NCBI GenBank assembly: GCA_002784045.1
Contig: PFJX01000017.1
Span: 1-43,861 of the forward strand
DNA: 43,861 bases
Direction: 5' to 3'
Source: Hydrogenophilales bacterium CG_4_10_14_3_um_filter_63_21
GTDB taxonomy: Bacteria; Pseudomonadota; Gammaproteobacteria; Burkholderiales; Thiobacillaceae
Position numbers and translations under genes: made by a program. Under the pieces are notes generated by a model that saw only the letters and a program-made list of their open reading frames with translations, ran no database searches and was not told the origin of the DNA. Positions 13,440 through 31,883 of the stretch are shown here, in pieces; the first letter of the stretch is position 1, and each line of letters opens with the position of its first letter.

Positions 13440-13450
13440 ACCGCGACGTA

Positions 13451-13490
13451 GAACCGCATCGCACCTCGACCACAGCGGATGATGCGGTTC
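13451..13490. repeat. Inverted repeat in the nosH-nosF spacer
   Basis: GAACCGCATC (13451-13460) and its perfect complement GATGCGGTTC (13481-13490) are separated by 20 bp. CGTAG to the left and CATCCTACG to the right resemble the repeat near 43623-43673, which also has TGCGGTTCGC and CATCCTACG. It is probably a REP-like element that could attenuate transcription or stabilise the message between nosH and nosF. Confidence 0.55.
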
Positions 13491-13530
13491 GCAAGCTCAC
13501 CACATCCTACGCAATCTCCGAGGCAACTCT

Positions 13531-14822: not shown

Positions 14823-15658
14823 TGGCAAAGACCAACGATTTCTGGCCCACCCTGCGCCTGGAGGTGAATACCTCGCTGCGCGCGCGCTGGTTCGCCGTGC
14901 ATTCATTGGTATTCGGCGGCATCGTTGCCCTGCTGTTCGTGTTCGGCCTGACCGAATCGCGGGTGTTGGGCTTCATTGGCCTGTCGCGCCTGCTGGTCAC
15001 CTACATCCAGTTGGCGATGGCGATCCTGCCCATTTTCGTGCTGATCACCACGGTGCGTTCGGTAGCCGGCGACCGCGAGGCGGGGGTGTTCGAGTACCTG
15101 CTGGCCCTGCCGGTGTCGCTCGCCGCCTGGTTCTGGGGCAAGTTCCTCGGGCGCTATCTGATGGTGTTCGCGCCTGTTTTTCTGGCCATGCTGGGCGCCT
15201 CGCTGTGGGCCTTGGTGCGTGACATCCCGGTGCCCTGGGGCATGTTCGGCTATTACACCGCCCTGCTCGCGGCGATGACCTGGTGCTTCCTCGGTATCGC
15301 CATGCTGATCTCCACGTGCGCGCGCTCCACCGACGTGGCGCAGGGCGCGGCCTTCCTTGTTTGGCTGGTGCTGCTGCTGTTTCTCGACCTGATCCTGCTC
15401 GGGGTGATGATCCAGGAACACGCTCCGGCCGAAGTGGCTGTCGCCATCGCCCTGTTCAACCCGCTGCAATCTTTCCGCACCGCCGCGCTGATGCTGTTCG
15501 ATCCACAACTCATCGTGCTGGGGCCGGCGGCCTACGTCATCTTTGACCTGTTCGGTGCCCTCGGTTATCAGATTTTTGCCCTGGCCTGGCCGACCCTGAT
15601 CGGCACAATCTGCGCCGCCTGGGGGTATCGGATGTTCCGCAAGGGGGACTTGCTGTGA
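14822..15658 (+). CDS. nosY: ABC transporter permease NosY
   Basis: 278 residues with six predicted membrane helices. The EYLLALPVSLAAWFWGKFLGR segment, just after a cytoplasmic SVAGDREAG stretch, is typical of NosY/ABC-2 permeases. It pairs with NosF and docks NosD. I use ATG 14822, 6 nt after AGGGG; ATG 14819 would add one residue. Its stop overlaps the GTG start of the TlpA-like gene. Confidence 0.92.
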   Translation: MAKTNDFWPTLRLEVNTSLRARWFAVHSLVFGGIVALLFVFGLTESRVLGFIGLSRLLVTYIQLAMAILPIFVLITTVRSVAGDREAGVFEYLLALPVSLAAWFWGKFLGRYLMVFAPVFLAMLGASLWALVRDIPVPWGMFGYYTALLAAMTWCFLGIAMLISTCARSTDVAQGAAFLVWLVLLLFLDLILLGVMIQEHAPAEVAVAIALFNPLQSFRTAALMLFDPQLIVLGPAAYVIFDLFGALGYQIFALAWPTLIGTICAAWGYRMFRKGDLL

Positions 15659-16155
15659 AACATTGGTTACTCATCGGCTTGCTTGCCGCATCAGGCGCAA
15701 TGGCGGATGAGCCGGTCAATTTCTTCGCCACCCCGAGCGCGACCTTCGCGCAACCGGGCGGCGGCAAGCTTCAACTTGACAGCATCAAGGGGCGCCCGGC
15801 GGTGGTCAATTTCTGGGCCACCTGGTGTCCGCCCTGCCGCGAGGAATTGCCGCTGCTGGCCAAGATTCACGCCCGCTACGAGAAAAAATACCGTGGCAAG
15901 GTCGGCTTCCTCGGCCTGGCGGTGGAAGACAACGCCGAATTCGTCGGCGAATACGCCCACGCCTACGGTCTCACTTATCCCATTGCTGTCGGCCGCGAGC
16001 CGGCCATCGCGCTGATGCAGGCGCTGGGCAACACGCAGGCGGGCATGCCCTACACCGTGGTGCTGGATAGCGAGGGCCGGGTGGTCTACAGCAAGCGCGG
16101 CATGGTTAAAGACAAAGATCTGGACCGCGCACTGGCGCAGCTATTGCGGCCATGA
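15655..16155 (+). CDS. TlpA/ResA-like periplasmic thioredoxin of the nos operon
   Basis: 166 residues. A signal peptide (about 1-17, ending AMA) is followed by a thioredoxin fold with the active site WCPPC (Cys58, Cys61) and a cis-Pro at AGMPYT. Members of this family reduce cysteines in periplasmic copper-site proteins and cytochromes. Inside the nos operon the likely targets are the CuA Cys of NosZ, the NosL Cys pair or the haem-binding Cys of the cytochrome; the target is inferred. GTG start. Both ends overlap neighbouring genes (nosY and the second nosD) by 4 bp. Confidence 0.85.
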   Translation: MKHWLLIGLLAASGAMADEPVNFFATPSATFAQPGGGKLQLDSIKGRPAVVNFWATWCPPCREELPLLAKIHARYEKKYRGKVGFLGLAVEDNAEFVGEYAHAYGLTYPIAVGREPAIALMQALGNTQAGMPYTVVLDSEGRVVYSKRGMVKDKDLDRALAQLLRP

Positions 16156-17384
16156 GCACCGGAATGGCCTGGCGGCACGCCTTGTGCTTCTGGGTCATCT
16201 GCGGTTGGACCTGCTTCGCCGAAGCGGGGCTGCCGCCACTGCAACCGCTGATCGACGCCAGTCCCGCTGGTTCGATCTTGCGCCCGCCCGCCGGGCGCTA
16301 CGCCGGTCCCGCAGTCATCGACAAAACCCTGACCCTCGACGGCGGCGGCCATGTCACCCTGGACGGCGGCGGGCGCGGCACGGTGCTCTCCGTGCGCGCC
16401 GACAATGTCAGCGTGCGCGGTATGCACCTGACGAACTCCGGCGCCAGCCACGACGGCGTCGATGCCGGCCTGCTGATCGACACGGCGGATCGCGCGCGGG
16501 TGGAAAACAACGTCATCGACCAGGTGCTGTTCGGCCTCCACCTGAAGCAAGCCAATCGCGCCTTGGTGCGTGGCAATACGATTCGCGGCCGGACGGAGGA
16601 ACTCAATCTGCGTGGCGACGGCATCCGCCTGTGGAACAGCCATTTCAACCGACTGGAAGGCAACCGAATCAGCGAATGCCGCGACCTCACCGTCGCCAAC
16701 TCCGCCAATAACCTGTTCCTCCGCAATACGGTGAGCAACGGACGTTACGGGATGCAATTCATTTTCTCGCCGCGCAACCGCATCGAAGGCAACCTGGTCA
16801 GCCACACCACCACCGGCATCGCCGTGCTCTATTCGGATCAGGCCACCCTGCGCGGCAACCGCGTCGAACATGTGCGCGATGTCGCCGGCGCCGGGCTGGC
16901 CTTCAAGGGCAGCAGCGAGGCCGAGGTCGTGGGCAACACCGTCCTGCACTGCACGGTGGGCGTCCAGGCCGATGACCCGCCTTACCCCGAGGCGCGCCAC
17001 CGCTTTCGTGGCAACCGTTTCGCCCACAACGTCACCGGCATGTATTTCTATGGTGAGAAAGGCGGCCATATCGTGCGGGACAATCGCTTCGAGAAGAACC
17101 TCATGCAGGTCGGCGTATCCGCGCCGGTCAGCGCGCGCGACAACGACTGGCGCGGCAACGAATGGGACGATTACGAGGGTTTCGACCGCAATGGTGACGG
17201 GATCGGCGATACGCCCTACGCCCTCTACTACTATGCCGACCGGATCTGGATGGAGACGCCCAAGGCGCGTTTCTTCCGCAACTCGCCGGCCCTGGAACTG
17301 CTCGATTTCCTCGAACGTCTGGCGCCGTTCTCGGCACCGGAATTGATCCTGCAAGACCCGCAACCACGCTGGCCACGAAAATGA
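16152..17384 (+). CDS. Second NosD-like beta-helix protein (copy 2)
   Basis: 410 residues. A signal peptide (about 1-25, ending AEA) precedes CASH-type beta-helix rungs. The C-terminal block RGNEWDDYEGFDRNGDGIGD and FLERLAPFS closely parallels that of copy 1 (10311-11672). Copy 2 lacks about 40 N-terminal residues found in copy 1 but looks complete. Two intact paralogues in one operon could act together or service different clients. It overlaps tlpA (ATGA) and the next gene. Confidence 0.88.
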   Translation: MSTGMAWRHALCFWVICGWTCFAEAGLPPLQPLIDASPAGSILRPPAGRYAGPAVIDKTLTLDGGGHVTLDGGGRGTVLSVRADNVSVRGMHLTNSGASHDGVDAGLLIDTADRARVENNVIDQVLFGLHLKQANRALVRGNTIRGRTEELNLRGDGIRLWNSHFNRLEGNRISECRDLTVANSANNLFLRNTVSNGRYGMQFIFSPRNRIEGNLVSHTTTGIAVLYSDQATLRGNRVEHVRDVAGAGLAFKGSSEAEVVGNTVLHCTVGVQADDPPYPEARHRFRGNRFAHNVTGMYFYGEKGGHIVRDNRFEKNLMQVGVSAPVSARDNDWRGNEWDDYEGFDRNGDGIGDTPYALYYYADRIWMETPKARFFRNSPALELLDFLERLAPFSAPELILQDPQPRWPRK

Positions 17385-17833
17385 ATCTGGAACGCAGCAA
17401 CCCCATGAAAAACCAATGGCTAGCGGCCGGCCTGCCGCTGCTCATTGTCGCCATCGCCGCCGGCGTGCTCTGGCGCGAGTCCGAGGCGCCGGCGCCCACC
17501 ACTATCGACCTGCCCTGCCCCACTCCGGCCACCGGCTGCACCGCCCGGATCGGCCAGCACGCCATCACGGTCGGCCTGGCTGGCCAAATCAAGACGCTGA
17601 AACTGTTGCAGGTCTGGGTGCGGGCCCCCGGCGCCGACCAGGTGCGGGCCAGCTTCGCGATGGTGGGCATGGACATGGGCTTCAACCTCTATACCCTGCG
17701 CCAAGACAAAGACGGCGTGTTCCGCGCCCAGGCCACCCTGCCTGCCTGCGTCAGCGGCCCTCGCGACTGGATCATGACCGTGGACATCGACCAGGCCACC
17801 CGCCTGGTCGTGCCCTTCGCCACCGAGTTGTAG
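17381..17833 (+). CDS. Membrane-anchored periplasmic protein of the nos operon, unknown
   Basis: 150 residues. A single N-terminal transmembrane helix (about 13-28) is followed by a predicted periplasmic domain with three Cys (PCPTPATGC and LPACVSG) and a Met-rich MVGMDMGFN motif. The layout (short anchor, beta-rich domain, Met cluster) is reminiscent of FixH/YtkA-like and copper-handling proteins, but I do not recognise a specific family. It is the last gene of the nos transcript, coupled to the second nosD by ATGA, so a copper or NosZ-maturation role is plausible. An internal ATG at 17405 is an alternative start. Confidence 0.7.
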   Translation: MNLERSNPMKNQWLAAGLPLLIVAIAAGVLWRESEAPAPTTIDLPCPTPATGCTARIGQHAITVGLAGQIKTLKLLQVWVRAPGADQVRASFAMVGMDMGFNLYTLRQDKDGVFRAQATLPACVSGPRDWIMTVDIDQATRLVVPFATEL

Positions 17834-17982
17834 ACATCGAAGAGGTGTTTACCCTGGGAATGAGCATTCACCGAGGGGGGGAAGCCGGCAATGTTCAGAC
17901 AGGCTCGGTTCAAGATGAGAACCTCCCTCGGAAAGGCGAATCCGAGTGGCCCACAATCCCACCACGGGACCAACATCCCCGC
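17834..17982. other. Intergenic region between the nos operon and higBA
   Basis: 149 bp. No terminator with a T-run is visible after 17833. It must hold the higBA promoter unless that pair is read through from nos, but I see no confident -35/-10 pair. Confidence 0.4.
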
Positions 17983-18288
17983 ATGAGAATCGTCGCGATC
18001 AAAGTGCTGCGTGATTTCTGGGTATGCCACCCAGACAGCAAGGCTCATCTGGAGGCCTGGATCGACGAAGCGCGCAAGGCGGACTGGAAACAGCCAAGCG
18101 ACATCAAACAGATGTTCCGCAACGCCAACATCCTGAAAAACCGCCGTGTGGTGTTCAACATCAAGGGCAACGATTACCGCTTGATCGCTGCCGTGGCCAA
18201 CCGCTTTGGCGCGCTTTACATCAAGTTCATCGGCACCCACGCGGAATACGACGGCATCGACGCCGAGACCATCGAAATGGAGTTATGA
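17983..18288 (+). CDS. higB: HigB-type mRNA interferase toxin
   Basis: 101 residues, the usual size. The sequence pattern (MRIVAIKVLRDFW..H.DSK..LEAW near the start, FNIKGNDYRLIAAVAN in the middle, IKFIGTHAEYD near the end) is that of the HigB toxin family with a RelE-like fold, which cuts mRNA on translating ribosomes. The toxin gene precedes the antitoxin gene, the order diagnostic of higBA. The start at 17983 is the first ATG giving the canonical N-terminus. The stop overlaps the antitoxin ATG. It lies in accessory DNA between the nos and rnf loci. Confidence 0.9.
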   Translation: MRIVAIKVLRDFWVCHPDSKAHLEAWIDEARKADWKQPSDIKQMFRNANILKNRRVVFNIKGNDYRLIAAVANRFGALYIKFIGTHAEYDGIDAETIEMEL

Positions 18289-20240: not shown

Positions 20241-20426
20241 TCACGAGTGGCAGCTTCCCCCGCTGCACCCGCTCCCCCCCGAACACGAACCGCAGCCCCG
20301 CTCACCATCCCGGAACGGGCCGAGTTGCGGGTTTTTCCGGGCGAAGCCACGGTAGAGGCGGTCGACACCGATGCCGACCAGGGCGATCCCCAGGATCAGC
20401 GCGATGGTGATCAGATAAGTACTCAT
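20241..20426 (-). CDS. Small Cys-rich single-span membrane protein at the end of the rnf operon
   Basis: 61 residues. An N-terminal transmembrane helix (about 3-21) leads into a short basic linker. The C-terminal tail is rich in Gly, Ser and Cys, with four cysteines (45, 48, 54, 59) in GCGSCSGGSGCSGGSC. The start codon overlaps the rnfA stop (ATGA), so it is translated with the Rnf subunits. The layout (one helix plus four Cys) resembles NqrM, the small membrane protein needed to mature the membrane Fe site in Na+-NQR, an enzyme homologous to Rnf, but the sequence is not NqrM itself. A metal-delivery or assembly role for Rnf is my inference. Confidence 0.7.
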   Translation of the reverse strand: MSTYLITIALILGIALVGIGVDRLYRGFARKNPQLGPFRDGERGCGSCSGGSGCSGGSCHS

Positions 20427-21007
20427 TCCCCCGCTCCCAGGCCGGCGAAGCCCATGAAGGCGAGGGAGAGCAGGCCGGCGAGCAGCAGCGACAGGGCGGT
20501 GCCCTGGACCACATTGGGGATGTTGGCAAGACTGAGGCGTTCGCGCAGGCCGGCCATCAGCAGCAGCGCCAGGGTGAAGCCGAGGCCGCCGGCCAGCGCG
20601 AAGGTCAGCGACTGGATGAAACGGTATTCGCGCGCGGTCTGGAACAGCGCCACCCCCAGCACGGCGCAGTTGGTGGTAATCAGCGCCAGGTAGATGCCGA
20701 GGGCGCGGAACAGCACCGGGCTGGTTTTCTTCAGCACCATTTCCACCAGTTGCACCGCCGCGGCGATGATCACGATGTAGGCGATCAAGCGCAGGAATTC
20801 CAGGTGAAGCGCGGTGACCAGCCAGTTGAGGCCGAAGGCGCAGAGGCTGGCCACCAGCATCACAAAGGTGGTCGCCGCGCCCATCGGCAGCGCGGTATTC
20901 AGGCGCGCCGAGACGCCGAGAAACGGGCACAGCCCGAGGAACATGGCCAGCACGAAGTTGTTGGCCAGCAAGGTGCCGATGAAGATTTGCGAGACCGATT
21001 CAGACAT
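20423..21007 (-). CDS. rnfA: Electron transport complex subunit RnfA
   Basis: 194 residues, the standard RnfA size, with six transmembrane helices. LGLCPFLGVS in the first third and TTNCAVLG in the middle supply the Cys residues that, with those of RnfE, hold the intramembrane Fe-S centre. Rnf couples electron transfer between ferredoxin and NAD+ to Na+ or H+ translocation. The start overlaps rnfE by 8 bp, and the stop overlaps the Cys-rich mini-gene. Confidence 0.95.
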   Translation of the reverse strand: MSESVSQIFIGTLLANNFVLAMFLGLCPFLGVSARLNTALPMGAATTFVMLVASLCAFGLNWLVTALHLEFLRLIAYIVIIAAAVQLVEMVLKKTSPVLFRALGIYLALITTNCAVLGVALFQTAREYRFIQSLTFALAGGLGFTLALLLMAGLRERLSLANIPNVVQGTALSLLLAGLLSLAFMGFAGLGAGE

Positions 21008-21665
21008 GGGCGTGGCTCTCGGTGGGCTTGGCGGGCGCGGCCTTGCGGCTATCCAGCCAGTTGAACAACAACAGCCAGGCGCCCAGCACGAAAAAACCGC
21101 CGGGCGGCAGCACCATCACGACCCAGGGCTGGAAATCCGGCCCGAACAGACTGACGCCGAACAGCTTGCCGGCGCCGAGAATTTCCCGCACCGCGCCCAG
21201 CGCGAACAGGCCGATGGTGAAGCCGGCACCCATGCCGATGGCGTTGAGCACGGCTTTCACCGGCCGGTTTTTTGAGGCATGAGCTTCGGCGCGGCCAAGG
21301 ATGATGCAGTTCACCACGATGAGCTGGATGAAAGCGCCAAGCGCGTCGTACAGGGCCAGGCTGATGGCCTGGATGGCGTAGTCCACCACCGTGACAAAAG
21401 TGGCGATGATGAGGATGTAGGTGGCGATGCGCACTTCCTTGGGCACCAGGTTGCGCATCAGGGAAACCAGCAGGCTGGAGCCGACCAGCACGAACGCCGT
21501 CGCCAGGCCCATGCTCATGGCGTTCATGGCCGATACCGACACCGCCAGGGTCGGGCACATGCCCAGTACCATGACGAACACCGGATTCTGTTTCCAAACC
21601 CCTTCCAGCAATTCTTCCAGGTTGGAGCGGGGTTTTTGTCCTGGAATCAAAGGCGCGGTGGCCAT
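21000..21665 (-). CDS. rnfE: Electron transport complex subunit RnfE
   Basis: 221 residues from ATG 21665, which has GGAGGG 8 nt upstream; ATG 21671, overlapping the rnfG stop, would add two residues. Six hydrophobic helices. LGMCPTLAVS and VVNCIILGRAEA are the RnfE/NqrD signature, with the Cys ligands of the membrane Fe-S site shared with RnfA. The C-terminal tail is hydrophilic and ends SHAHV. Part of the continuous rnf operon with overlapping junctions. Confidence 0.95.
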   Translation of the reverse strand: MATAPLIPGQKPRSNLEELLEGVWKQNPVFVMVLGMCPTLAVSVSAMNAMSMGLATAFVLVGSSLLVSLMRNLVPKEVRIATYILIIATFVTVVDYAIQAISLALYDALGAFIQLIVVNCIILGRAEAHASKNRPVKAVLNAIGMGAGFTIGLFALGAVREILGAGKLFGVSLFGPDFQPWVVMVLPPGGFFVLGAWLLLFNWLDSRKAAPAKPTESHAHV

Positions 21666-21667
21666 GT

Positions 21668-22342
21668 TCATTTCCCTCCTTGCAGCGTATCGAGATGCGG
21701 CACCAGCAGCGGCAGCAGCTTTTGCGCGCTGTCATTGATGCCCTTGCCCACCGCTTTCGAAGTCACCGTGGCGCCAGCGATGGCGTCGATTTCCCAGGGG
21801 TTCTGCTTGGCTCCGTGTTTCATCACCTTGATGGCATGGGCGAGCGATTTGAGATCGGCGGCCAGTTGCGCATCGAGCGCCACAAAATTTTTCAGGAAGG
21901 CCGGATCGCTATGGATCTTGTCGCCGATGCCGGGAGTTTCCCGCATCGACACCACGCCTATGCCGGTGATGGCCTGTTTTTCCGGGTCGTAGGCATAGAG
22001 CACGCGCACCGTATCGGCATAGCCCTTGGCGGCGCCCTCGGCGGCGATCCCCTTGAGCGCGCCGGCCTGGTCATAGGCGGCATAGAACTTCACCGCGCCT
22101 AACGGTGGCGTGGCGCCGGCGGGCTGCACGCCAGCCGTGCCGGCGACGAATTCCTTGACGCTGGCGGCACCCGGGATGACCTTGAACACGGCACGTTCCA
22201 GGGCGATTCTTTTGTTGGCGGCAACCGCTTCCCGGGTGCTCTGATAGGCGGAGACGATGAGGATGCCGCAGACCGTGGCCACCAGCCCGAGGGTGCGGAT
22301 CATGGCGGCGCTGGAGGGGGTGGGTTGGGTGAGAACGTTCAT
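21668..22342 (-). CDS. rnfG: Electron transport complex subunit RnfG, covalent FMN
   Basis: 224 residues. One N-terminal membrane helix (about 14-32) anchors a periplasmic FMN-binding domain. The ETPGIGDKI motif and the AGATVTSKAV motif near the C-terminus are typical; the Thr of GAT (about residue 192) is the expected covalent FMN site. RnfG relays electrons on the outer face of the membrane. It overlaps rnfD by 4 bp and rnfE closely. Confidence 0.94.
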   Translation of the reverse strand: MNVLTQPTPSSAAMIRTLGLVATVCGILIVSAYQSTREAVAANKRIALERAVFKVIPGAASVKEFVAGTAGVQPAGATPPLGAVKFYAAYDQAGALKGIAAEGAAKGYADTVRVLYAYDPEKQAITGIGVVSMRETPGIGDKIHSDPAFLKNFVALDAQLAADLKSLAHAIKVMKHGAKQNPWEIDAIAGATVTSKAVGKGINDSAQKLLPLLVPHLDTLQGGK

Positions 22343-23394
22343 GCCTTCTTCCCCTTCACCGCCCCGAACACCTTGGGTTGCGTCACCTGGTCGATCAACG
22401 GGCTCAATGCGTTGCCGATCAGGATGGCGTACATCACCCCTTCACTGAGGCCGCCGAAATAGCGAATCATCACCGTCACCACCCCGATCAGGGCGCCGTA
22501 GAGCCACACCCCTTTCGGCGTCACCGGCGAGGTCGCCATGTCAGTGGCCATGAACACCGCGCCCAGCATCAGGCCGCCGGAGAGCAGCACGAACAGCGGG
22601 TCGGGATAGCGCGCCGGGTCGATCATCTGAAACACCAGGGCGGTGAGCGCGGCGCTGCCCAGGTCGGCCACGGGAATGCGCCAGTCCATGAACTTGCGCG
22701 CCGCCAGATAGGCGCCGCAAAGCAGGATCAGGAGGGCCGAGGTTTCGCCCGCGGAGGCGGTGACAGCGCCACTGAGGAGATCCGCCGGCGTGGCCAGCAC
22801 GTTCTCGAACTTCCAGCGCGCCAGGGGCGTGGCGCCGGTGAAGCCGTCCAGCACCGATTTTGCCTGTAGCGCCCAGGCAGCGATGTCCGGCGGCGTCATC
22901 AGTGGCGCGGTGAAGGTAGTCGGCACGAACTCGCTGAAGCGCCGCGGCGCGAAGGCCGGCACCCAAGTGGTGATCGCGACCGGAAACGCCGCCTGGACAA
23001 AGGCGCGTCCCACCAGAGCCGGGTTGAGCACATTGCAGCCGATGCCGCCGAACAGCGCCTTGCCCAGGGCGATCGCGGTAAAACTGGCCACCGCGCCCAT
23101 CCACAGTGGGAAGGAGGGCGGTAGGGTCAGCGCCAGCAACAGGCCGGTGATGGTCGCACTCCAGTCCGACAGGGTGCTTGGCTTGCCGCTCAAACGGTTG
23201 AACAGGCGTTCGCTGGCGATGCAGGCGAGCGTCACCACGACGATCAAGGCCAGCGCGGAAAGCCCGTATTGCCAGACCGAAAAAGTGGCAATCGGCAGCA
23301 GGGCGAGCACCACGTGGAACATGATGTGCTCGACGCTGGCGCCCTTCACCACATGGGGTGAAGGGCGCAGTTCAATGCGGGGGGTCATGGTCAT
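22339..23394 (-). CDS. rnfD: Electron transport complex subunit RnfD, covalent FMN
   Basis: 351 residues with about nine or ten membrane helices. The flavinylation motif GFTGATPLA is present, with the target Thr at about residue 189. GGIGCNVLNPALVGRAF and a C-terminal MATDMATSPVTPKG block are conserved in RnfD/NqrB. It carries the ion-translocation path with RnfA/E. The ATG at 23394 has no clear ribosome site, and ATG 23388 is equally possible. It follows rnfC by 30 bp. Confidence 0.94.
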   Translation of the reverse strand: MTMTPRIELRPSPHVVKGASVEHIMFHVVLALLPIATFSVWQYGLSALALIVVVTLACIASERLFNRLSGKPSTLSDWSATITGLLLALTLPPSFPLWMGAVASFTAIALGKALFGGIGCNVLNPALVGRAFVQAAFPVAITTWVPAFAPRRFSEFVPTTFTAPLMTPPDIAAWALQAKSVLDGFTGATPLARWKFENVLATPADLLSGAVTASAGETSALLILLCGAYLAARKFMDWRIPVADLGSAALTALVFQMIDPARYPDPLFVLLSGGLMLGAVFMATDMATSPVTPKGVWLYGALIGVVTVMIRYFGGLSEGVMYAILIGNALSPLIDQVTQPKVFGAVKGKKA

Positions 23395-23424: not shown

Positions 23425-24762
23425 TCAAGCCGCCTTCCCCCGCAGAACCCCCTTGGCCACGCGGAACTGCTGGACCAGGGGGATATGGGAGGGGCAAACG
23501 TAAGTACAGCAACCGCACTCGAAGCAGTCGCCCAGGTGGTAGTGGGTGCCCATTTCTTCATATTCGCGCTGGACGGCGAGCATGCCCAGCATGGAGGGGT
23601 TGAGGCCCATCGGGCAGGCGTTCACGCATTCGCCACACTTGATGCAGGGCCAGACTTGGCGCGCGGCTTCGATCTGAAGCTGGTCGAACACCAGGATGCC
23701 GGGCACCCCCTTGGTGACCGGCACCTCCAGCGAGGCGACGGCCTGGCCCATCATCGGGCCGCCCAGGATGATCTCGCGCTCGCCGCTGTCGGCGGCGCCG
23801 GCCCACTCCAGCACAGTGCGCATCGGCGTGCCGATCGGCACCCAGTAGTCGCCCGGCTTCTTGATACCGGGGCCGGTGACGGTGACCACCCGCTCGGTGA
23901 GCCCCTGCCCGGCCGGCAGCAATTGGCCCAATTGCGCCAGCGTGCCGATGTTATTGACCACCACACCGACCTGCATCGGCAATTTTCCGGGTGGCACTTC
24001 CAGGTCGAGCAGCGACTTGATCAGCATCTTCTCGGCGCCTTGCGGATACTTGGTCGGCACCACCTGGACCGTGATGCTGCTATCAGCGGGTAGGCATTCG
24101 CGGATGGCCGCCACCGCATCGAGCTTGTTGTCCTCGACACCGATGATGGCGCGCTCGGCGCCGATGGCCCGCATCGCCAGCCGCACCCCGACCATCAGAT
24201 CGGCGGGATGCTCAAGCATCAGGCGGTGGTCGCAGGTCAGATAGGGCTCGCACTCGCAGCCGTTGACGATCAGGGTGTGAATCTTGTGCTCGGCCGGCAC
24301 GCTGAGTTTGGCGTGGCTGGGGAAAGTGGCGCCGCCCAGGCCGACCATGCCGCTGTCCTGGATGGCTTGCAGGATTTCCTTGGGCGAAAGGGACTCCACG
24401 TCGCAGGGATTGGCCCAGCGCACTTCCTGGGTGGAGGCCTCGTACACGCGCAGGACGAGGGATTCGACCCAGGGGCCGCGCGCCGAGGGTTTCAGTTCGA
24501 TGGCTTCGATGACGCCATCGGCTGGGGCGTGAAGGGGGACCGACAGAAACCCGTCGGCCCGGGCTATGGGTTGGCCGCGAACGACCTCCTCGCCGGCCCG
24601 AACGAGGGGCACTGCCGGCTTACCGATGTGCTGCGCGAGGGGGAGGATCATGCGCGACGCAAACGGCATCCGACGAATCGGACTGCCGGCAGTGCGCTTG
24701 TTCGCGTCGGGGTGCACCCCACGCGAGAAGGTTTTGCGGCGGAAGAAGGGGAAGAGGCTCAT
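23425..24762 (-). CDS. rnfC: Electron transport complex subunit RnfC
   Basis: 445 residues. The N-terminal RnfC barrel-like region begins with a GVHPD motif. An NADH/flavin-binding (Nqo1-like) segment has GLGGATFPSHAKL and NGCECEPY. Two 4Fe-4S motifs are at the C-terminus (CIKCGECVNACPMGL and CFECGCCTYVCPSHIPL). It is the cytoplasmic subunit that meets NAD(H). It is short compared with gammaproteobacterial RnfC, which has long repetitive tails, and closer in length to clostridial or Bacteroidetes forms. It starts at ATG 24762, 47 bp after the oxidoreductase gene; that spacer contains a small GGGTGC/GCACCC palindrome. Confidence 0.95.
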   Translation of the reverse strand: MSLFPFFRRKTFSRGVHPDANKRTAGSPIRRMPFASRMILPLAQHIGKPAVPLVRAGEEVVRGQPIARADGFLSVPLHAPADGVIEAIELKPSARGPWVESLVLRVYEASTQEVRWANPCDVESLSPKEILQAIQDSGMVGLGGATFPSHAKLSVPAEHKIHTLIVNGCECEPYLTCDHRLMLEHPADLMVGVRLAMRAIGAERAIIGVEDNKLDAVAAIRECLPADSSITVQVVPTKYPQGAEKMLIKSLLDLEVPPGKLPMQVGVVVNNIGTLAQLGQLLPAGQGLTERVVTVTGPGIKKPGDYWVPIGTPMRTVLEWAGAADSGEREIILGGPMMGQAVASLEVPVTKGVPGILVFDQLQIEAARQVWPCIKCGECVNACPMGLNPSMLGMLAVQREYEEMGTHYHLGDCFECGCCTYVCPSHIPLVQQFRVAKGVLRGKAA

Positions 24763-24809
24763 GGTTGCTTGGTCGTAGGGTGCACGGCGCACCCGACGAC
24801 GGCGCTCCC

Positions 24810-27800
24810 TCAGTTGTACTTCGCCGCCCGGGCGATCAGCTTGTCGACATTCGGCTCGGCCATGTTCCAGGGCGTGCCGGGGTGGATGATGCCGGCGGTG
24901 CACTTCTCCGCCGCCTTGACGAGGTTGACGAAGGAGGTGCCTTGCGGGTTGATGACCGTGGCCTGCTTGTTGCCGTTGTAGGCGAACACCTTGGGCGCAA
25001 GGGTGGTGCACTCGTCGCAGGCGGTGCATTCCGGCGTGTCGATGTAAACCGCATCGCCCTGTAGCGCAGGCGTCTCGCCTGCCTTCGCGGCGGTGGATGC
25101 AGGCGAGGACGCCTGCGCTACAACACCGTCGCCGAAGTTGGCCAGGCTGGCGCTGATCTGGCCCAGCAACTCGGCACGCGCCCGGTCGGCGATGGCCTGC
25201 TCGTCCACCACGGGCGTATCCATGCCGGCGACATCCTTCAACTGTTGCCAGAACTGCTGGCGTTCCTCGCAGGCGTTGACCAGTTCCGCCGACACGATCA
25301 CCCGCATCAGTCGCTGCTTTTTGTCCACCGCCCAGATGTAAGGGAACTTGCCGTCGCGATCGTCGGCATCGAGTTTCAGGAAGTCGGCCAGGAGCACCAT
25401 GCTGTTGCCACCCTCATCGTTCCAGGTATCCGGCGGCGCTTTCTTGAATTGCTTGGCGAAGCGGCCCTCACCCAGCGCGAAATCGGCGAAGGTCATGGGC
25501 AGTTTCATCGTCGCGAGGGTGCCGTCTTCCTCCTGGTAGGCCAGGGTGTAGCTGGGCCATTCGGCGTCCATCTCCGGGTTGCCTTCCAGGCTCACGCACT
25601 CGCTGAAGGTGGTGCCCAGATCGGGGTCGTAGCGGAACAGCGGGTAGGCGCGCGATTCCACCGCCAGCTTGGAGCGTTCCACCGCCATGTCGTCGCCAAC
25701 GCCATGTTCCGGCGGGCACACGGCGTAGATGTTGAACAGGGCCGGGCGGCGGCTGTTGAGGCCATCGATGTAGCTCTCGATCAAGTGGGTCGGATTGGAA
25801 ATGGCGCTCTGGGCGACGAAGGCGGTGCGGTGCGCCATGCCGATGACGCTGATTTCCTTGCGGATTTCCTTCTTGCCGTGGCGCTGCTTGCCATAGGGCG
25901 ACATGTCCGCCACCTGGCTGACAAAGCCGGAGGTGCAAGCCTGGCCGCCGGTATTGGAATAGACCTGGGTGTCGACCACCAGCACCTTCACCGGCATCCC
26001 GGTCATCAAGGCGCGCGAGAGGTTCTGGAAGCCGATGTCGTACATCGCGCCGTCGCCGCCAATGGCGACCACGGGCGGGCTCAGGTGCCACTCTTCTGCC
26101 GAGAATTTTTCCCAGTTGTAGTAGGTGAACTCGGCGTCGTGCACGGCCGGGTTATAGCCGCCGTTGAGTTCAATCTGCGCCATCCGAACCGCCTTGAAGC
26201 CGTCCGCCATCTTCGCCATGTGGCCCTCGAACAGGCCCATCGCCACCGAGGGGGAGTCCTGGAACAGGTGCGAAGTCCAGGGGAATGGGTACGGATTGAA
26301 CGGGAAGGTGGAGGCCCACACCGAGGTACAGCCGGTCGAGTTGGCGATGCCCATCACGGCGCGGCCACGCTGGGTCGGACCTTCCACATAGCGCCACTTG
26401 AGGTCTTTCAGGCGCGCCAGCAGTTGCGTCACCCACTTCAGCCACTGCGGGTCGATGGGCTGGGCGTGGGCATCCCCCTTGAGGCTCTCGGACAGGTTGG
26501 CGAGGGTAAGGTCGTGGCCCTGGCTGGCTTCAACGGCGGCCAGCACGGCGCGAGTATCGGACAAGTCCACGGTCTCGGTGAGCTTCATCCGGAGATGCTT
26601 TTCCAGTCCGTCGATCAGGCCGTCAAGCTTTTCCACGAAGGCCGCCACACGCGGCTGCATCAGCGCGGTGACGGTGGATGTGAACAGGTGGATGGCGGTC
26701 TTCTCGCCGCAACCCAGGCAGGCGCCGTCGCCGCAGGCCATGCTGTTGTAGTTGTGTTTGTCCAGCAGCAGGGTTTCCAGCGCGCCGATCTTCTCGTCGA
26801 GATCGTCGATGCGGCGGTAGTCCTTCGGCGTGCTGGGCAGGTCGAGCCAGAATTTCCAGTCGCGCCGCAGTTGCGCGACGCTGTCCTCGTTCTGGGTGAC
26901 CATTTTCAGGGCGTTGTCCTCGCAGACCTCCACGCACAACGCGCAGCCCTTGCAAGTGTAGGGGTTGACGGTAATGGAAAAGAGGCCACCACTGCCTTTG
27001 CCTTTCTTCTCCTTGTTGGTCCAGTAGGGCTTGGTGGTGGCGAACTGGAATTCACCGATCTGTTGTTCCAGGAGGTGGTATTCCTCTTCCATCGCCGCGT
27101 TGCCCTGGTTGGGGTCTTCGTGAATGGCGTCCTCGATCGCCTGGCGCATCAGGGCGCGCACGTCGAGGCCGTCCTTCTCCAGCGCCCCGCGCAGCTTCTT
27201 CTCGATGACGCGGGAACCCTTGCGCAGGAAGCGGGTGATGCGGCCGCCCATCTCGATATTGCTGATGGCGGTACCCAGCACATCGCCCACCGTCGAAACC
27301 AGGCCGGGAATTGCCGAGTCCGGGCACTGGGTGTAGCAGTTGCCGCAGGCGGTGCAGTTTTCCGCGATCCACACCGGGTGTTCAAAACGAATCTGGGCCA
27401 TGTCGCGATAGACGCCGGTGACCGCGGGGATCAGGGCCATGCCCATGAACGGATCGGCGAGGTTGTCGGAGCCCTTGCCGGAAAGGTAGAAGCTCCCGGT
27501 CTGTTCCCAGAAGCGGTGCAGGTCGGCGGACTTGGCCAGCTTGCCGGCGTTTTCCGGTTGCCGCTTCAGCATGATGGGCAATGCGGGCAGGGGCTTCGCC
27601 CCTGACGGCTGGCGCGCGCCAATCTGCTTCACGGCGGTGGGAATCTCGTGAATCTCCGTGTAACCGCGCTTCACCACGCGCAGGTTGTCATCGACCACGC
27701 GCTGGCCCTTCTTGCCGAACTTTTCGTTGAGCTGATTTTCGATGGCGCGGAATAGGGTTTCCTCATCCAGGCCGGCGCGCCGCCGCACATCCGAGGCATG

Positions 27801-29816
27801 GAAAAAGGCGCCCTGGAAGGCGTTGCCCTGCATTCTGAGTTGCAGATCGGGGTTGGAGGATTCCTCGCGGGCGATGCTGAAGGCATCCAGATAAAACACC
27901 TGGATGTCGTTCTCGACGATGGTTTTCTGGACGTGCGGCGGGAAGGTCGCCCACAGCGCCGCGGCATCCGGCAAATTGCTCTGGATGATGAACACGCCCG
28001 CTTTCTTGAGGCCGGTTACCGCATGGGTGTGCAGGAACACCTGTGGGTCGGGCGAGAGCACCACATCCACTTCCGAGTATTCGCAGTTGACGCGGATCGG
28101 CTCGGGCGCGGCGGACAGGTAATAGGTGGTGGGCTGGCCCTTCTTCTCGGAGCCATACTTCGGGTTGGCCTTGATGTCCCAGCCCAGCAGCTCGAACAAG
28201 GTCATCGCCAGATTCTTGCCGGTGGTCACCGCGCCCCAGCCGCCCACCGAGTGCAAGCGCACGGCGATGGCGCCCTTCGGCATCAGGTTGGGGTTCTCGG
28301 AGCCGTGGAGCGCCAGCTCCTTGATCTTCGGGTAGGCGGCGAGGATTTCCTGTTGATGGATTTCCTGCTTCGGGTTGGCCGCCTGGTCGTGGATGAAGTC
28401 GATGGAGAGGTAATAGAACTTTTTGTGCGCACCTTTTTCCGTCATGTTTTCGATGGCGGCGATCAGGGCTTCCGGTTGCAGGTCGCGCGAGCCGAGACCG
28501 TAACAGCCGGAATACAGGCGCGGCAGGTCGGTCAACTTGGCGTAAGCCGCGTAGCCTGGGTAGGCGCCGGCGTCTGGAGAGTTCTGGCTGCGCCGAAACT
28601 CTGCATCCACGCCGTTTTCCAGGCACTTGCTCACGGTGGCGCGCACTTCGCGCATCAGCGGCAGATCTTCCGCCATCGGCTGGTCGGTGCGCTCCAGCAC
28701 GGCCACGCCCTTCTTGCCCTTGAGCACATGGCCCAGCAGGTCGCCGGGGAAGGGACGGAAGCAGGTCAGGTTGACCACGCCCACTTTCACTTTGCGGTTC
28801 TCGCGCAGCCAGTCGGCGACGGCGGCCGCCTGCACAGTCATGCTGCCCTGGCCGAGGATGAGGTAGTCGGCGTCGTCGCAGCGATAGGCATCGACGCGGC
28901 GGTAGCGGCGGCCAGTCAGCGCGGCGAACTCGGCCATGCACTGATCCATGAGTGCCGGGATGTGCTGAAAGAAATACGGGCGCTGCGCGGCGGTGGCCTG
29001 CATGTGCGCGTCCTGGTTGGCGACGCCGCCGGACACCAGCGGGGAATCCACATCCCAGATCGCCGGCACGCGGCGGCGCTTCGGGCCATAGATGATTTCC
29101 TGCGCCGGCGTCGGGGTGTCGATGAGGTCGTCCGGGCGGCCCAGGAAATCCACCACCAGCCCCTTTTCCGGCGTCAACACCGGCTCGATCAGGTGGGTGG
29201 TGAGGAAGCCGTCCATTCCCATGATGGCCGGGGTCAAGGAGAGTTCGGCGGTCTTGCGCGCGATCATGTTGAGGTCGGCGGCTTCCTGCGCGCTCTTGGC
29301 CATCACCTGGATAAAGCCGGTGTCGTCGGCGCAGTGGTAGTCGTCATGGCCGCAATGCACGTTGAGGGTCGCCTTGGTGATCGCGCGGCAGCCCAGGTTG
29401 AGCACATAGGGCAGGCGCTTGCCAACGGCGCCATAGAGCGATTCGTGCATGAAGGCCATGCCCTGGGAGGAGGTGAAATTCACCGCGCGCAGGCCGGTCA
29501 TGGCCATCCCGGCGGTCACCCCGGCGGCGGCATGTTCGGATTCCGGTTCCAGGAAAATCAACGGGCGGCCCGACATATTCACCTGGCCGGCGGCCACCGC
29601 CTCGGACCAGTACTCGCCCATGTTGGTGGACGGCGTGATGGGGTAAGCACCGGCGGCATCGGAAGCGACGCGCTCGACCAGGATCACGGCGGTGTTGCCG
29701 TCGATGGCATCACGCACGCCGGGGTATTTCACGTTCCTGGCGGTGGTTTTAGAAGACGTGCCCGGCTCCATCAGGTGCATCTGGCCGAGCAGTTGGGTGA
29801 TGGGGTTTTTGATCAT
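24810..29816 (-). CDS. Large pyruvate/2-oxoacid:ferredoxin oxidoreductase-like protein fused to a ferredoxin domain
   Basis: 1,668 residues, against about 1,170-1,200 for ordinary NifJ/PFOR. Domain order: PFOR I/II with AYPITPSTNMGE near residue 45; the gamma domain with SVGGWGAVTTGKNLA (about 510-740); 4Fe-4S motifs CTACGNCYTQCP (about 817) and CKGCALCVEVC (about 954), with an unusually long, charged insertion of about 130 residues between them; the proximal cluster CGDGACLGCGE (about 1024); a helical insertion; and the TPP site GGDGAMYDIGFQ (about 1250) with SNTGGQ. A C-terminal ferredoxin-like domain (about 1595-1668) has CTACDEC and a distal Cys before IIHPG. Such enzymes convert 2-oxoacid plus CoA to acyl-CoA, CO2 and reduced ferredoxin, reversibly; pyruvate is likely but not proven. 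ATG 29816 (GAGAGG 9 nt upstream) is preferred to TTG 29837. It lies between rnfB and rnfC. Confidence 0.9.
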   Translation of the reverse strand: MIKNPITQLLGQMHLMEPGTSSKTTARNVKYPGVRDAIDGNTAVILVERVASDAAGAYPITPSTNMGEYWSEAVAAGQVNMSGRPLIFLEPESEHAAAGVTAGMAMTGLRAVNFTSSQGMAFMHESLYGAVGKRLPYVLNLGCRAITKATLNVHCGHDDYHCADDTGFIQVMAKSAQEAADLNMIARKTAELSLTPAIMGMDGFLTTHLIEPVLTPEKGLVVDFLGRPDDLIDTPTPAQEIIYGPKRRRVPAIWDVDSPLVSGGVANQDAHMQATAAQRPYFFQHIPALMDQCMAEFAALTGRRYRRVDAYRCDDADYLILGQGSMTVQAAAVADWLRENRKVKVGVVNLTCFRPFPGDLLGHVLKGKKGVAVLERTDQPMAEDLPLMREVRATVSKCLENGVDAEFRRSQNSPDAGAYPGYAAYAKLTDLPRLYSGCYGLGSRDLQPEALIAAIENMTEKGAHKKFYYLSIDFIHDQAANPKQEIHQQEILAAYPKIKELALHGSENPNLMPKGAIAVRLHSVGGWGAVTTGKNLAMTLFELLGWDIKANPKYGSEKKGQPTTYYLSAAPEPIRVNCEYSEVDVVLSPDPQVFLHTHAVTGLKKAGVFIIQSNLPDAAALWATFPPHVQKTIVENDIQVFYLDAFSIAREESSNPDLQLRMQGNAFQGAFFHASDVRRRAGLDEETLFRAIENQLNEKFGKKGQRVVDDNLRVVKRGYTEIHEIPTAVKQIGARQPSGAKPLPALPIMLKRQPENAGKLAKSADLHRFWEQTGSFYLSGKGSDNLADPFMGMALIPAVTGVYRDMAQIRFEHPVWIAENCTACGNCYTQCPDSAIPGLVSTVGDVLGTAISNIEMGGRITRFLRKGSRVIEKKLRGALEKDGLDVRALMRQAIEDAIHEDPNQGNAAMEEEYHLLEQQIGEFQFATTKPYWTNKEKKGKGSGGLFSITVNPYTCKGCALCVEVCEDNALKMVTQNEDSVAQLRRDWKFWLDLPSTPKDYRRIDDLDEKIGALETLLLDKHNYNSMACGDGACLGCGEKTAIHLFTSTVTALMQPRVAAFVEKLDGLIDGLEKHLRMKLTETVDLSDTRAVLAAVEASQGHDLTLANLSESLKGDAHAQPIDPQWLKWVTQLLARLKDLKWRYVEGPTQRGRAVMGIANSTGCTSVWASTFPFNPYPFPWTSHLFQDSPSVAMGLFEGHMAKMADGFKAVRMAQIELNGGYNPAVHDAEFTYYNWEKFSAEEWHLSPPVVAIGGDGAMYDIGFQNLSRALMTGMPVKVLVVDTQVYSNTGGQACTSGFVSQVADMSPYGKQRHGKKEIRKEISVIGMAHRTAFVAQSAISNPTHLIESYIDGLNSRRPALFNIYAVCPPEHGVGDDMAVERSKLAVESRAYPLFRYDPDLGTTFSECVSLEGNPEMDAEWPSYTLAYQEEDGTLATMKLPMTFADFALGEGRFAKQFKKAPPDTWNDEGGNSMVLLADFLKLDADDRDGKFPYIWAVDKKQRLMRVIVSAELVNACEERQQFWQQLKDVAGMDTPVVDEQAIADRARAELLGQISASLANFGDGVVAQASSPASTAAKAGETPALQGDAVYIDTPECTACDECTTLAPKVFAYNGNKQATVINPQGTSFVNLVKAAEKCTAGIIHPGTPWNMAEPNVDKLIARAAKYN
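25060..25122. repeat. In-frame REP-like inverted repeat inside the oxidoreductase gene
   Basis: TGTAGCGCAGGCGTC-TCGCCTGC (25060-25082) and the complement of TGTAGCGCAGGCGTC-CTCGCCTGC (25099-25122) form a 23/24-bp inverted repeat with one indel and a 16-bp spacer. On the minus strand it is translated without interruption as a low-complexity linker (ASSPASTAAKAGETPALQ, about residues 1565-1586) just before the C-terminal ferredoxin domain. Same family as the palindrome at 3441-3465. Confidence 0.85.
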
Positions 29817-29829
29817 TTCGAAATGCCTC

Positions 29830-30714
29830 TCAGACAACGTTGGCGCTCACCGGGAGCGCTTCCATGCGGATGATCTTCTTGGCCTCGCGTCCTTTCGCCG
29901 GCGGCTTGCCATCCAGCCAGACAATGGCCCCGGTGGGGCAACGCTCGATCGCCACGGCAGACGCCAAGGGGTTCTTGGCGTAGTCGATCACCGCCAGGTT
30001 GCGGTCCAGGCGGATCAGGCCGGGGGCGGCATCCATCACGCACTTGCCGCAGGCGGTACAGGCCACCCCGCATTGCGCTTCGGCGATATCGCCATCCGCC
30101 CGGCTCTTGCAGGCCACCCAGAGCTTGTGGCTCAGCGGCTGCAAGGAAAAAAGGTCTTTCGGACACACCGCGACGCAGTCGCCGCAGGCCGTGCACTGGT
30201 CGGCATCCACCCGCGGGAGGCCGTATTGATCCATGGCGATGGCGTCGAAATCACATGACACCTCACAATCGCCCAGCCCCAGGCAGCCCCAGGCGCAGGC
30301 CTTGCCGCCCCCGGAAACCGTGGCCGCCGCGCGGCAGGTGGACAGCCCTTGGTAACTGGCGCGCATCCTGGCGACATGGCTGCCGCCGGCGCAGGCCAGG
30401 CGCGCCACCTGCTTCTCGACTTCACCCATGGCCACGCCCAGAAAACTGGCGATAGTGGCGTTCATGTCCGGAGAGTTCACGGTGCACCTGGCCGGAACCC
30501 TCTCACCCGCCACCACCTGTTCCGCGAAGTTGCGGCAGCCCGCCGTGCCGCAAGCGCCGCAATTGGACTTCGGCAACATTTCCTCGACCTCATCGATGCG
30601 CGGATCCTCGTAGACATAGAAACGCTTGTTGGCCAAGGACAACAGCCAGGCCAAAGCGCCACCCAGGACCGCCATGAAGACCCCCGCCACCGCCACATCT
30701 GCAATCGTCTCCAT
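29830..30714 (-). CDS. rnfB: Electron transport complex subunit RnfB
   Basis: 294 residues. A transmembrane helix (about 6-28) leads into the CGACGTAGCRNFAE motif, the 4Fe-4S site of RnfB. Next come Cys-rich segments, a ferredoxin motif CTACGDCVAVCP and a second site built from CTACGKC and a later RCPTGAI. RnfB is the cytoplasmic entry point that takes electrons from ferredoxin. ATG 30714 has AGGAG about 5 nt upstream; a GTG at 30717 is too close. First gene of the rnf operon, 13 bp before the oxidoreductase start and divergent from the LysR gene. Confidence 0.94.
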   Translation of the reverse strand: METIADVAVAGVFMAVLGGALAWLLSLANKRFYVYEDPRIDEVEEMLPKSNCGACGTAGCRNFAEQVVAGERVPARCTVNSPDMNATIASFLGVAMGEVEKQVARLACAGGSHVARMRASYQGLSTCRAAATVSGGGKACAWGCLGLGDCEVSCDFDAIAMDQYGLPRVDADQCTACGDCVAVCPKDLFSLQPLSHKLWVACKSRADGDIAEAQCGVACTACGKCVMDAAPGLIRLDRNLAVIDYAKNPLASAVAIERCPTGAIVWLDGKPPAKGREAKKIIRMEALPVSANVV

Positions 30715-30725
30715 CACCGCTCCTT

Positions 30726-30748
30726 TACCTGATATGGATAGTCAGGTA
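30726..30748. promoter_or_regulatory. Inverted repeat in the rnfB leader
   Basis: TACCTGA and TCAGGTA, separated by 9 bp, lie just upstream of the rnfB ribosome site. The symmetry and spacing would suit a dimeric regulator or a small leader hairpin. The regulator is not known from sequence; the divergent LysR protein is a candidate. Confidence 0.4.
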
Positions 30749-30956: not shown

Positions 30957-31883
30957 ATGCCCTCCGACGCCCAGCTTTACTACAAGAACAATCGTCTCAA
31001 GCAGTTGCGCGCCTTCCATCAGGTGGTGCGCTGCGGCAGCATCTCGAAGGCGGCGGAAAAGCTGTTTCTGTCGCAGCCTTCCGTGTCGCTACAGATTCAG
31101 GCGCTGGAACGGGAACTGGAAGTAGTGCTGTTCGAGCGGCGCGGCCCGCGTCTCAAGCTCACGCCGGAAGGCGAGGTGCTCTATCAGCTTGCGGAACCGC
31201 TGGTCGATGGCATCGACAAATTGCAGGAAACTTTCTCCGCCCACTTCGGCAAACTGGAATCAGGCGAACTGAACATCGGCGCGGGCGAATCCACCATCCT
31301 CTATACCTTGCCGGAACCGGTGAGCCGTTTCGTGGCGGCGTATCCCAAGGTGCATCTGAAAATGCACAACGTCACCGGGCGCGACGGCCTCAAGATGCTG
31401 CGCTCCGACGAGATCGACTTCGCCGTCGGCTCGATGCTGGAAGTGCCGGAAGACATTGAATACCAGCCGGTGGTGAGCTACGACCCGATGCTGATCACGC
31501 CCATCGGCCACCCGCTGGCGAGGCAGTCGGCAATGGGCGAGGAAGTCACTCTGGAAGACGTCAGCCACTACGGCCTGATCCTGCCGCCCGCGCATCTGTC
31601 CACCTGGCGTATCGTCAAATACGTGTTCCAGCAGCACAACCTGACCTTCCAGGTCACCCTGGAAGCCGGCGGCTGGGAAGTCATCAAGAAATATGTGGAA
31701 CTCGGCATGGGCATTTCCATCGTCACCGACATCTGCCTCACCGGCACGGAAAAACTGGTGAGCATTCCGCTCACCCAATACTTTCCGCAACGCAGCTACG
31801 GCCTGGTATTACGCCGTGGCCGCTTCCTGTCGCCGCAAGCGCGGCGCTTCATCGAGATCATGCAAGAGGTCTATCGGGTGTAG
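30957..31883 (+). CDS. LysR-family transcriptional regulator divergent from the rnf operon
   Basis: 308 residues. The N-terminal winged helix-turn-helix (about 14-75) contains the LRAFHQVVRCGSISKAAEKL and SQPSVSLQIQALERELEVVLFERRG segments. The C-terminal part is a periplasmic-binding-protein-like effector domain. Its sensed ligand is unknown; CysB/Cbl-like or CbbR-like assignments are not justified by sequence alone. Divergent placement makes rnfB and the oxidoreductase the likely targets. The stop lies 9 bp before MITE copy B. Confidence 0.88.
   Translation: MPSDAQLYYKNNRLKQLRAFHQVVRCGSISKAAEKLFLSQPSVSLQIQALERELEVVLFERRGPRLKLTPEGEVLYQLAEPLVDGIDKLQETFSAHFGKLESGELNIGAGESTILYTLPEPVSRFVAAYPKVHLKMHNVTGRDGLKMLRSDEIDFAVGSMLEVPEDIEYQPVVSYDPMLITPIGHPLARQSAMGEEVTLEDVSHYGLILPPAHLSTWRIVKYVFQQHNLTFQVTLEAGGWEVIKKYVELGMGISIVTDICLTGTEKLVSIPLTQYFPQRSYGLVLRRGRFLSPQARRFIEIMQEVYRV

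Follow-up and report, generated by a model that had tools for sequence, protein, structure and literature searches.

A pyruvate:ferredoxin oxidoreductase-like giant encoded within rnf operons, a candidate electron arm of a distinct Rnf lineage

Why does a very large oxidoreductase gene lie in the middle of an rnf operon, and does its product serve the Rnf complex? The question is raised by contig PFJX01000017.1 of Hydrogenophilales bacterium CG_4_10_14_3_um_filter_63_21 (43,861 nucleotides; the whole of this stretch is called the window below), in which the gene for a giant protein resembling pyruvate:ferredoxin oxidoreductase (PFOR) is flanked by rnfB and rnfC. The Rnf complex links ion pumping to the lowest-potential electrons of the cell, and in the customary scheme it receives these from free ferredoxin. 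The reading that we favour, with a probability of roughly 0.6, is that the operon represents a distinct Rnf lineage with an electron arm of its own, a giant PFOR-type protein that would be an active 2-oxoacid enzyme in operons like that of the window (type 1) and a dead conduit fed by KorAB in a second kind of operon (type 2), where the giant is called the relic. The genes of the window operon all lie on the minus strand in the order rnfB, giant oxidoreductase, rnfC, rnfD, rnfG, rnfE and rnfA. This order had been put forward in the original prediction, with rnfB immediately upstream and gaps of 13 and 47 bp on either side of the oxidoreductase gene, and was borne out by the coordinates and by Pfam and NCBIfam searches: 13 bp separate the rnfB stop from the oxidoreductase ATG at 29816, and 47 bp the oxidoreductase stop from the rnfC ATG. 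The main genes of the operon are:

29830..30717, minus strand: rnfB, Cys-rich form; 295 aa from GTG 30717 (alternative ATG 30714), 20 Cys
24810..29816, minus strand: Rnf-embedded PFOR-like oxidoreductase (type 1); 1,668 aa from ATG 29816, or 1,675 aa from TTG 29837
23425..24762, minus strand: rnfC; TIGR01945 509 bits (cut-off 246), included in the RnfC tree
22339..23394, minus strand: rnfD; above the NCBIfam cut-off
21668..22342, minus strand: rnfG; FMN_bind, TIGR01947 89 bits, cut-off of 102 not reached
21000..21671, minus strand: rnfE; above the NCBIfam cut-off
20423..21007, minus strand: rnfA; above the NCBIfam cut-off

RnfA, B, C, D, E and G are therefore all encoded, five of them above the NCBIfam cut-offs and RnfG below its own. 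The alternative TTG start of the oxidoreductase at 29837, from which its residues are numbered throughout, would overlap rnfB. The genes are presumably co-transcribed. No terminator-like site was listed in the rnfB-oxidoreductase or the oxidoreductase-rnfC junction, which says little because the scan gave no excess over shuffled sequences (11 sites against a mean of 9.1). A GC-rich palindrome (24777-24797), not followed by a run of T, occupies much of the 47-bp gap.

In the giant itself Pfam recognized POR_N, domain II (PFOR_II), POR gamma, two Fer4 motifs and the thiamine pyrophosphate (TPP) domain, in the order in which they occur in PFOR. The parts referred to below are:

28971..29660, minus strand: POR_N (domain I), residues 60-289; Thr68, Glu101 and Arg151 align with PFOR residues
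27309..27377, minus strand: first CxxCxxCxxxC motif, residues 821-843 (C828, C831, C834, C838), shared by type 1 and the type 2 relic
26883..26966, minus strand: second CxxCxxCxxxC motif, residues 958-985 (C962, C965, C968, C972), shared by type 1 and the type 2 relic
26388..26687, minus strand: insert of about 100 residues (1051-1150), nearly absent from NifJ and two-gene relatives
25731..26075, minus strand: TPP-binding domain, residues 1255-1369, with GDG...NTGGQ
24882..25049, minus strand: C-terminal single-cluster ferredoxin domain (Fer4_13, Pfam), residues 1597-1652 (C1604, C1607, C1610, C1646)

By alignment the giant has the active-site Thr, Glu and Arg of PFOR, the TPP motif with its Asn and the four cysteines of the proximal cluster. 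The residues aligned to Thr68, Glu101 and Arg151 presumably act in the active site as in Desulfovibrio africanus PFOR, and we take the roles of the cluster residues and of the TPP-motif Asn to be those known in the same enzyme. Thr68, Glu101 and Arg151 were found in 125 of 128 type 1 open reading frames (ORFs; three gaps) and C1040, C1043, C1170, C1374 and N1295 in 127 (one gap), although these are not 128 independent genes because some genomes are included twice, as two copies of one contig. Two further alignments consisted of the window row plus 41 (A2) or plus 40 (A3) others, antisense ORFs and other rows having been removed by hand. The best solved sequence relatives of the giant are the Moorella and Desulfovibrio PFORs. 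Structure models of moderate confidence were compared using Foldseek: the N-terminal half (predicted local distance difference test, pLDDT, 69.1) matched PFOR 6cip (E 5e-36, query TM-score 0.53) and the C-terminal half (pLDDT 72.1) matched PFOR 6ciq (E 2.8e-11), the latter with a query TM-score of just 0.29. The last 60 residues matched D. africanus ferredoxin I (1fxr; target TM-score 0.80, root mean square deviation 1.6, E 0.018), and the sequence of the ferredoxin domain matched the same ferredoxin (1dax, E 4.5e-4).

The giant thus shares with the homodimeric PFOR/NifJ enzymes (D. africanus 1b0p, Moorella 6cin) the aligned catalytic and cluster residues, the domain order and the fold of both halves, but it is much longer (1,668-1,675 against 1,171-1,232 aa) and differs in its inserts, its C-terminal extension and the fused ferredoxin domain. 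Of the insert at 1051-1150, the median number of residues aligned was 100 in type 1, 99 in the type 2 relic, 96 in the type 2 half-PFOR described below, 61 in type 3, 11 in two-gene relatives and 8-11 in NifJ. An assignment as NifJ-type pyruvate:ferredoxin (flavodoxin) oxidoreductase is not supported by score, since the TIGR02176 equivalog gave 404.6 bits, far below its cut-off of 911.35. This implies that the giant is a PFOR-type enzyme of another subfamily. Two type 1 pairs gave dN/dS values of 0.17-0.19 (NG86), in keeping with purifying selection. Judged from its sequence, the type 1 giant is most likely an active 2-oxoacid oxidoreductase with pyruvate as its substrate.

Two further observations concern this gene. 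A palindromic repeat at 25061-25121 (minus strand) forms an in-frame insertion in the linker before the ferredoxin domain, and its core recurs in this gene in three relatives (L004/L033, L005 and L090). Antisense to the oxidoreductase run long open frames at 25245-27605 and 27798-29873 (plus strand; 786 and 691 aa), and in some relatives antisense stop-to-stop frames exceed 1,500 codons; they are probably a product of GC-rich codon use.

The original prediction had proposed a search for the rnfB-oxidoreductase-rnfC order across genomes. A close homologue of the giant (at least 66% identity) was present in 36 of 117 genomes, that of the window included, and was of full length in 30. All 30 full-length loci had rnfB upstream and 29 had rnfC downstream; in the remaining one the contig ends 425 bp after the gene. 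The order recurred in a scan of named genomes, from which 80 of at least 578 confirmed loci were retained (the 80 named loci to which counts below refer): 74 had rnfB within 700 nt upstream (four cut by a contig end, two without it), and for rnfC, looked for up to 900 nt downstream, the count was 71 (nine cut, none lacking it). The arrangement is therefore not peculiar to this assembly. The loci carry Beta- and Gammaproteobacteria labels and include Thiobacillus, Gallionellaceae, Sulfuritalea, Rhodocyclus, Rhodoferax and Rubrivivax as well as Sedimenticola, Thiodiazotropha, Ectothiorhodospira, Thiocapsa, Marichromatium and others. Culturable bacteria among these type 1 hosts are Rubrivivax gelatinosus, Rhodocyclus tenuis and Sulfurisoma sediminicola. 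Odd labels among them are Rhodoblastus, an 'Acidobacteria' metagenome-assembled genome (MAG; L101) and a 'PVC group' MAG (L112). The type 1 genes of the two MAGs are 62% and 61% identical to that of the window; the L112 giant groups with Thiocapsa in the POR tree (96/89), which does not include L101. Misbinning or transfer may account for both.

A profile search of the class detected distant homologues of the giant in a second kind of operon. In L153-L155 its order is korA, korB, the gene of an 811-840-aa protein (the half-PFOR), rnfB, the gene of a 1,511-1,564-aa giant homologue (the relic), and rnfC, D, G, E and A. The type 2 sample comprised 24 loci from 24 genomes plus six further genomes, 30 in total, additional type 2 matches lying outside these counts. 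The succession korA-korB-half-PFOR-rnfB-relic was present in 15 of the 24 loci (korA being at the edge of the stretch, and cut, in three), and three loci were cut by a contig end. Among the six added genomes, three loci carried the full set, one was cut before korA and two were in pieces. rnfB lay within 500 nt upstream of the relic in 22 of the 24 loci, and at 796 and 1,792 nt in the other two. KorA and KorB showed the active-site motifs YPITPATS, CxGCGD and GDGD and two further Cys, invariant in all rows that cover them (16 loci, 15 genomes). Genes for the succinyl-CoA synthetase subunits, sucC-sucD (Pfam), were found within type 2 rnf operons or bordering them in nine of the 30 genomes, either between the relic and rnfC (L149, L221-L223, L326, L328, L330), after the relic (L226) or before rnfC (L327); neither the window nor any of the 80 named type 1 loci has them. 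Their presence fits KorAB acting on 2-oxoglutarate, and it ties these type 2 operons to the oxidation or synthesis of that compound.

In the 24 relics (window numbering) Thr68, Glu101, C1040 and C1170 were retained in none, and an intact GDG was likewise absent from all; C1043 and C1374 were each found once, in different genomes, and N1295 once. The relic is also without the C-terminal ferredoxin domain. All eight Cys of the two CxxCxxCxxxC motifs were nevertheless kept in 24 of 24 relics and in the six further genomes (30/30), even in G335, G218 and G435, where the gamma domain has been lost (0-7 of 205 residues). Six relic pairs gave dN/dS values of 0.11-0.26 (NG86), which points to purifying selection, the values being rough as dS was above 1 in three of the six. 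The half-PFOR corresponds to the C-terminal half of the giant, to which it aligns with 28-29% identity, and has lost the other ligands; all four ferredoxin Cys were present in 15 of 16, the exception, L149, having a frame that is broken there. In L149 the half-PFOR is split over two frames (14649-17154, minus strand), with the ferredoxin part separate. The absence of catalytic residues from a relic that retains its cluster Cys suggests that the protein serves as the electron arm of the complex.

The RnfC of both operon types also stand apart. In the RnfC tree, type 1 (28 rows) formed one clade (100/100) and type 2 (20 rows) another (99/81), and together they were split from 32 RnfC sequences without POR (100/100). 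The latter comprised two from the window's own genome and the 30 best TIGR01945 matches of a 200-genome sample of the phylum; none of the 32 had a POR hit in the flank examined, which for 30 was limited to about 1.5 kb. The window's genome has two other Rnf clusters with all six subunits, as in the window operon, and no POR hit was found within the 13.0 and 10.4 kb examined around them. From such clusters the POR-bearing ones differ in their separate RnfC clade, in the oxidoreductase within the operon and in an RnfB that is mostly longer and richer in Cys (20-26 in the 14 examined from types 1 and 2; seven RnfB without POR had 12-15). Elsewhere the same genome encodes a NifJ-sized protein (1,233-codon frame) that is 25-29% identical to the giant. 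In the POR tree, built on domains I-II, a branch (99/91) separated types 1 and 2 from type 3, the two-gene relatives and NifJ.

A profile of type 1/2 RnfC was then run against 369 genomes of the class. It gave 31 matches of at least 569 bits in 27 genomes, the next match being at 503. A giant of type 1 or type 2 was present in every one of the 27, detected in 23 by the first scan (some in pieces) and in four on closer search; this count is one of co-occurrence, the giant lying anywhere in the genome. An Rnf of the type 1/2 kind without a giant was considered for G214, G335, G435 and G218, and all four proved to have type 2 giants. Counted in reverse the figure is 27 of 28, as G402 has a type 1 giant and a weak RnfC match; the 28 is a lower bound, since at most two candidates were scored per genome with a cut at 1e-100. 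In G195, the source of the 503-bit RnfC, no giant was found, and it was placed outside the group. As far as sequences can tell, the Rnf of types 1 and 2 is a lineage of its own. The dedicated route from 2-oxoacid to Rnf that had been predicted from the window receives indirect support from the 27/27 co-occurrence and from a type 2 body that has lost catalytic residues and kept eight cluster Cys.

The fused ferredoxin domain has a wider distribution. Type 3 giants (L239-L245 and L233, the last being a stretch of the same contig as L234) have frames of 1,668-1,722 codons, complete active-site residues and the same fused domain, with C1604, C1607 and C1610 in 8/8 and C1646 in 7/8, and are mostly found away from rnf. 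For six of the eight, the stretch examined contained neither rnf nor type 2 genes; L240 has rnfE and rnfA about 3 kb away, and L233 a type 2 korA at about 8 kb. The two-gene relatives (L147, L148, L150-L152, L248-L251) are without the domain. The domain was consequently discarded as a mark of Rnf docking, and its fusion did not arise for Rnf, because free-standing type 3 giants carry it.

How might such an arm operate? In the simplest scenario a PFOR body would have entered an rnf operon once, as an enzyme, and become an arm for electron exchange with RnfB. Type 1 would have retained the enzyme, its arm being fed by its own active site, and electrons would pass from TPP by way of the proximal [4Fe-4S] cluster, two further [4Fe-4S] clusters and the fused ferredoxin domain to RnfB, and from there (ion pump) to RnfC/NAD; the reverse of this path would be reductive carboxylation. 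In type 2, catalysis would have been handed to KorAB acting on 2-oxoglutarate, the PFOR body being kept as a two-cluster conduit and the ferredoxin tip moved to a second protein, the half-PFOR. The most specific form of this proposal holds that the PFOR-derived arm is stoichiometric and in physical contact with the complex, that it passes electrons between the 2-oxoacid active site and RnfB without free ferredoxin, and that one branch has become a pseudo-enzyme conducting from KorAB, with the tip on the half-PFOR protein and in some cases succinyl-CoA synthetase in the operon, so that a step of the tricarboxylic acid cycle would be wired into an ion pump. To this we would give an even chance.

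The same complex could run mainly in reverse. An ion gradient would then drive electrons from NADH into the arm, and pyruvate would be formed from acetyl-CoA and CO2 (for anaplerosis or the use of acetate or polyhydroxyalkanoates) or, in type 2, 2-oxoglutarate would be synthesized. This is a serious possibility that falls somewhat short of even odds. Sulfur oxidizers and phototrophs figure among the record titles, and PFOR has been proposed as a heterotrophic carboxylase for Kentron (PMC6593406). The published interpretation for the Solemya symbiont is on the other hand oxidative (PMC4287430). The sequence holds nothing that sets the direction, and sucCD of some type 2 operons is compatible with both.

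Usually, PFOR and Rnf are pictured as being coupled via soluble ferredoxin. Ordinary functional clustering, in which PFOR is a soluble enzyme expressed together with Rnf and the electrons travel on a diffusible ferredoxin without any physical arm, would conform to that picture; it would also agree with the type 3 giants that bear the same ferredoxin domain away from rnf and with the scattering of type 2 genes in some genomes. We consider it unlikely, as it leaves unexplained both why a PFOR body without catalytic residues yet with eight cluster Cys is maintained beside rnfB in type 2 and why the giant co-occurs with one Rnf lineage in 27 of 27 genomes. That the relic is kept for another reason, to scaffold or regulate KorAB or the assembly of the complex, is improbable and would say little on type 1: domains I-II are also conserved in type 2 (mean top-residue frequency 0.66 and 0.59, the cluster motifs having 0.71 and 0.61), but the eight cluster ligands are kept in 30/30 genomes while a whole domain may go.

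Several observations count against an Rnf lineage with its own arm. That pyruvate is the substrate of type 1 is read from the residues, because the score of 404.6 bits is so far from the 911 of the NifJ cut-off. Two of the 80 named type 1 loci are without rnfB upstream; in L108 it lies 7 kb downstream of the giant and in L112 there is none in the stretch examined. The eight free-standing type 3 giants have the ferredoxin domain too. Arg151 is kept in 16 of the 24 relics, so that not every active-site residue has been lost, and the branches leading to type 2 in the POR tree are long, which drew a warning from the tool. Six of the 24 type 2 loci have no korAB and half-PFOR beside rnfB; the half-PFOR is encoded elsewhere in those six genomes, and a homologue was found in 9/9 type 2 genomes searched. 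The type 2 order is looser altogether, rnfC being within 200 nt downstream of the relic in 14 of 24 loci. In the others it was at 1.0-2.7 kb (six loci, in four of which sucC-sucD lie between, taking up much of the gap), on the other strand (one), not within 6 kb (two) or cut off (one). In G435 the relic and rnfC are not neighbours: each has its own contig, and more than 11 kb before rnfC are free of the relic.

The arrangement and the basic idea, pyruvate as a donor to Rnf, are already in print. Dmytrenko et al. (2014; PMC4287430) reported PFOR genes between rnfB2 and rnfC2 of the Solemya velum symbiont and suggested pyruvate as a possible electron source for Rnf. Gene order and suggestion are the same as here; the available text of that account deals with one genome and includes neither a survey nor a domain analysis, and it mentions no fused ferredoxin, separate Rnf lineage or type 2 operon. 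Direct delivery of electrons between a 2-oxoacid oxidoreductase and an electron-transfer complex was also proposed for tubeworm symbionts, in this case by Flx-Hdr to KorABCD (PMC6315080), but Flx-Hdr is a bifurcating complex and not Rnf, and no PFOR body inside rnf is described in the accessible part of that work. According to further papers, a 'PFOR-like' gene and a dimeric korAB of the Riftia symbiont both drop in expression under sulfide limitation (PMC11636981), and RnfB is the entry point for ferredoxin electrons, with a cluster number that differs between species (PMC7414866). No description of the type 2 operon was found in the titles, abstracts and passages searched, which cover few subscription papers. 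New here are the separate Rnf lineage, the giant with its active-site and cluster residues and fused ferredoxin-I domain, and the type 2 sister lineage with its relic. If the favoured reading is true, such an Rnf would offer a channelled way in through an oxidoreductase arm of its own, which could give a role to Rnf clusters of purple sulfur bacteria and sulfur-oxidizing symbionts; in the Allochromatium vinosum genome paper the role of its three rnf clusters is called entirely unclear (PMC3368242). Since catalytic residues have been lost naturally and the clusters retained, electron arm and enzyme are separated, which makes the idea directly testable.

Two further genes lie at the ends of the operon of the window:

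20241..20426, minus strand: 61-aa protein; hydrophobic N-terminal stretch and Cys/Gly-rich tail (by eye), its start overlapping the rnfA stop
30957..31883, plus strand: divergent LysR-type regulator (Pfam/NCBIfam), candidate regulator of the operon

The 61-aa protein gene is probably the last (eighth) gene of the operon. It had no match above cut-off in a Pfam search. Of the 58 named loci with rnfA, 37 had a relative within 400 nt after that gene (two cut, 19 not found at E<=1e-6). A relative of the LysR-type regulator was at the same place in 29 of the 80 named loci (12 cut, 39 none). Just 5' of the rnfB ribosome-binding site an inverted repeat, ACCTGA-N9-TCAGGT (30727-30747), was noticed by eye and is possibly a LysR site. 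On the plus strand, a neighbouring cluster at 6138-17384 encodes a nos_propeller (nitrous oxide reductase) protein, two NosD-family proteins and a Fer4_5 protein, followed at 17416-18288 by a 290-codon frame that ends in a HigB-toxin-like domain (Pfam).

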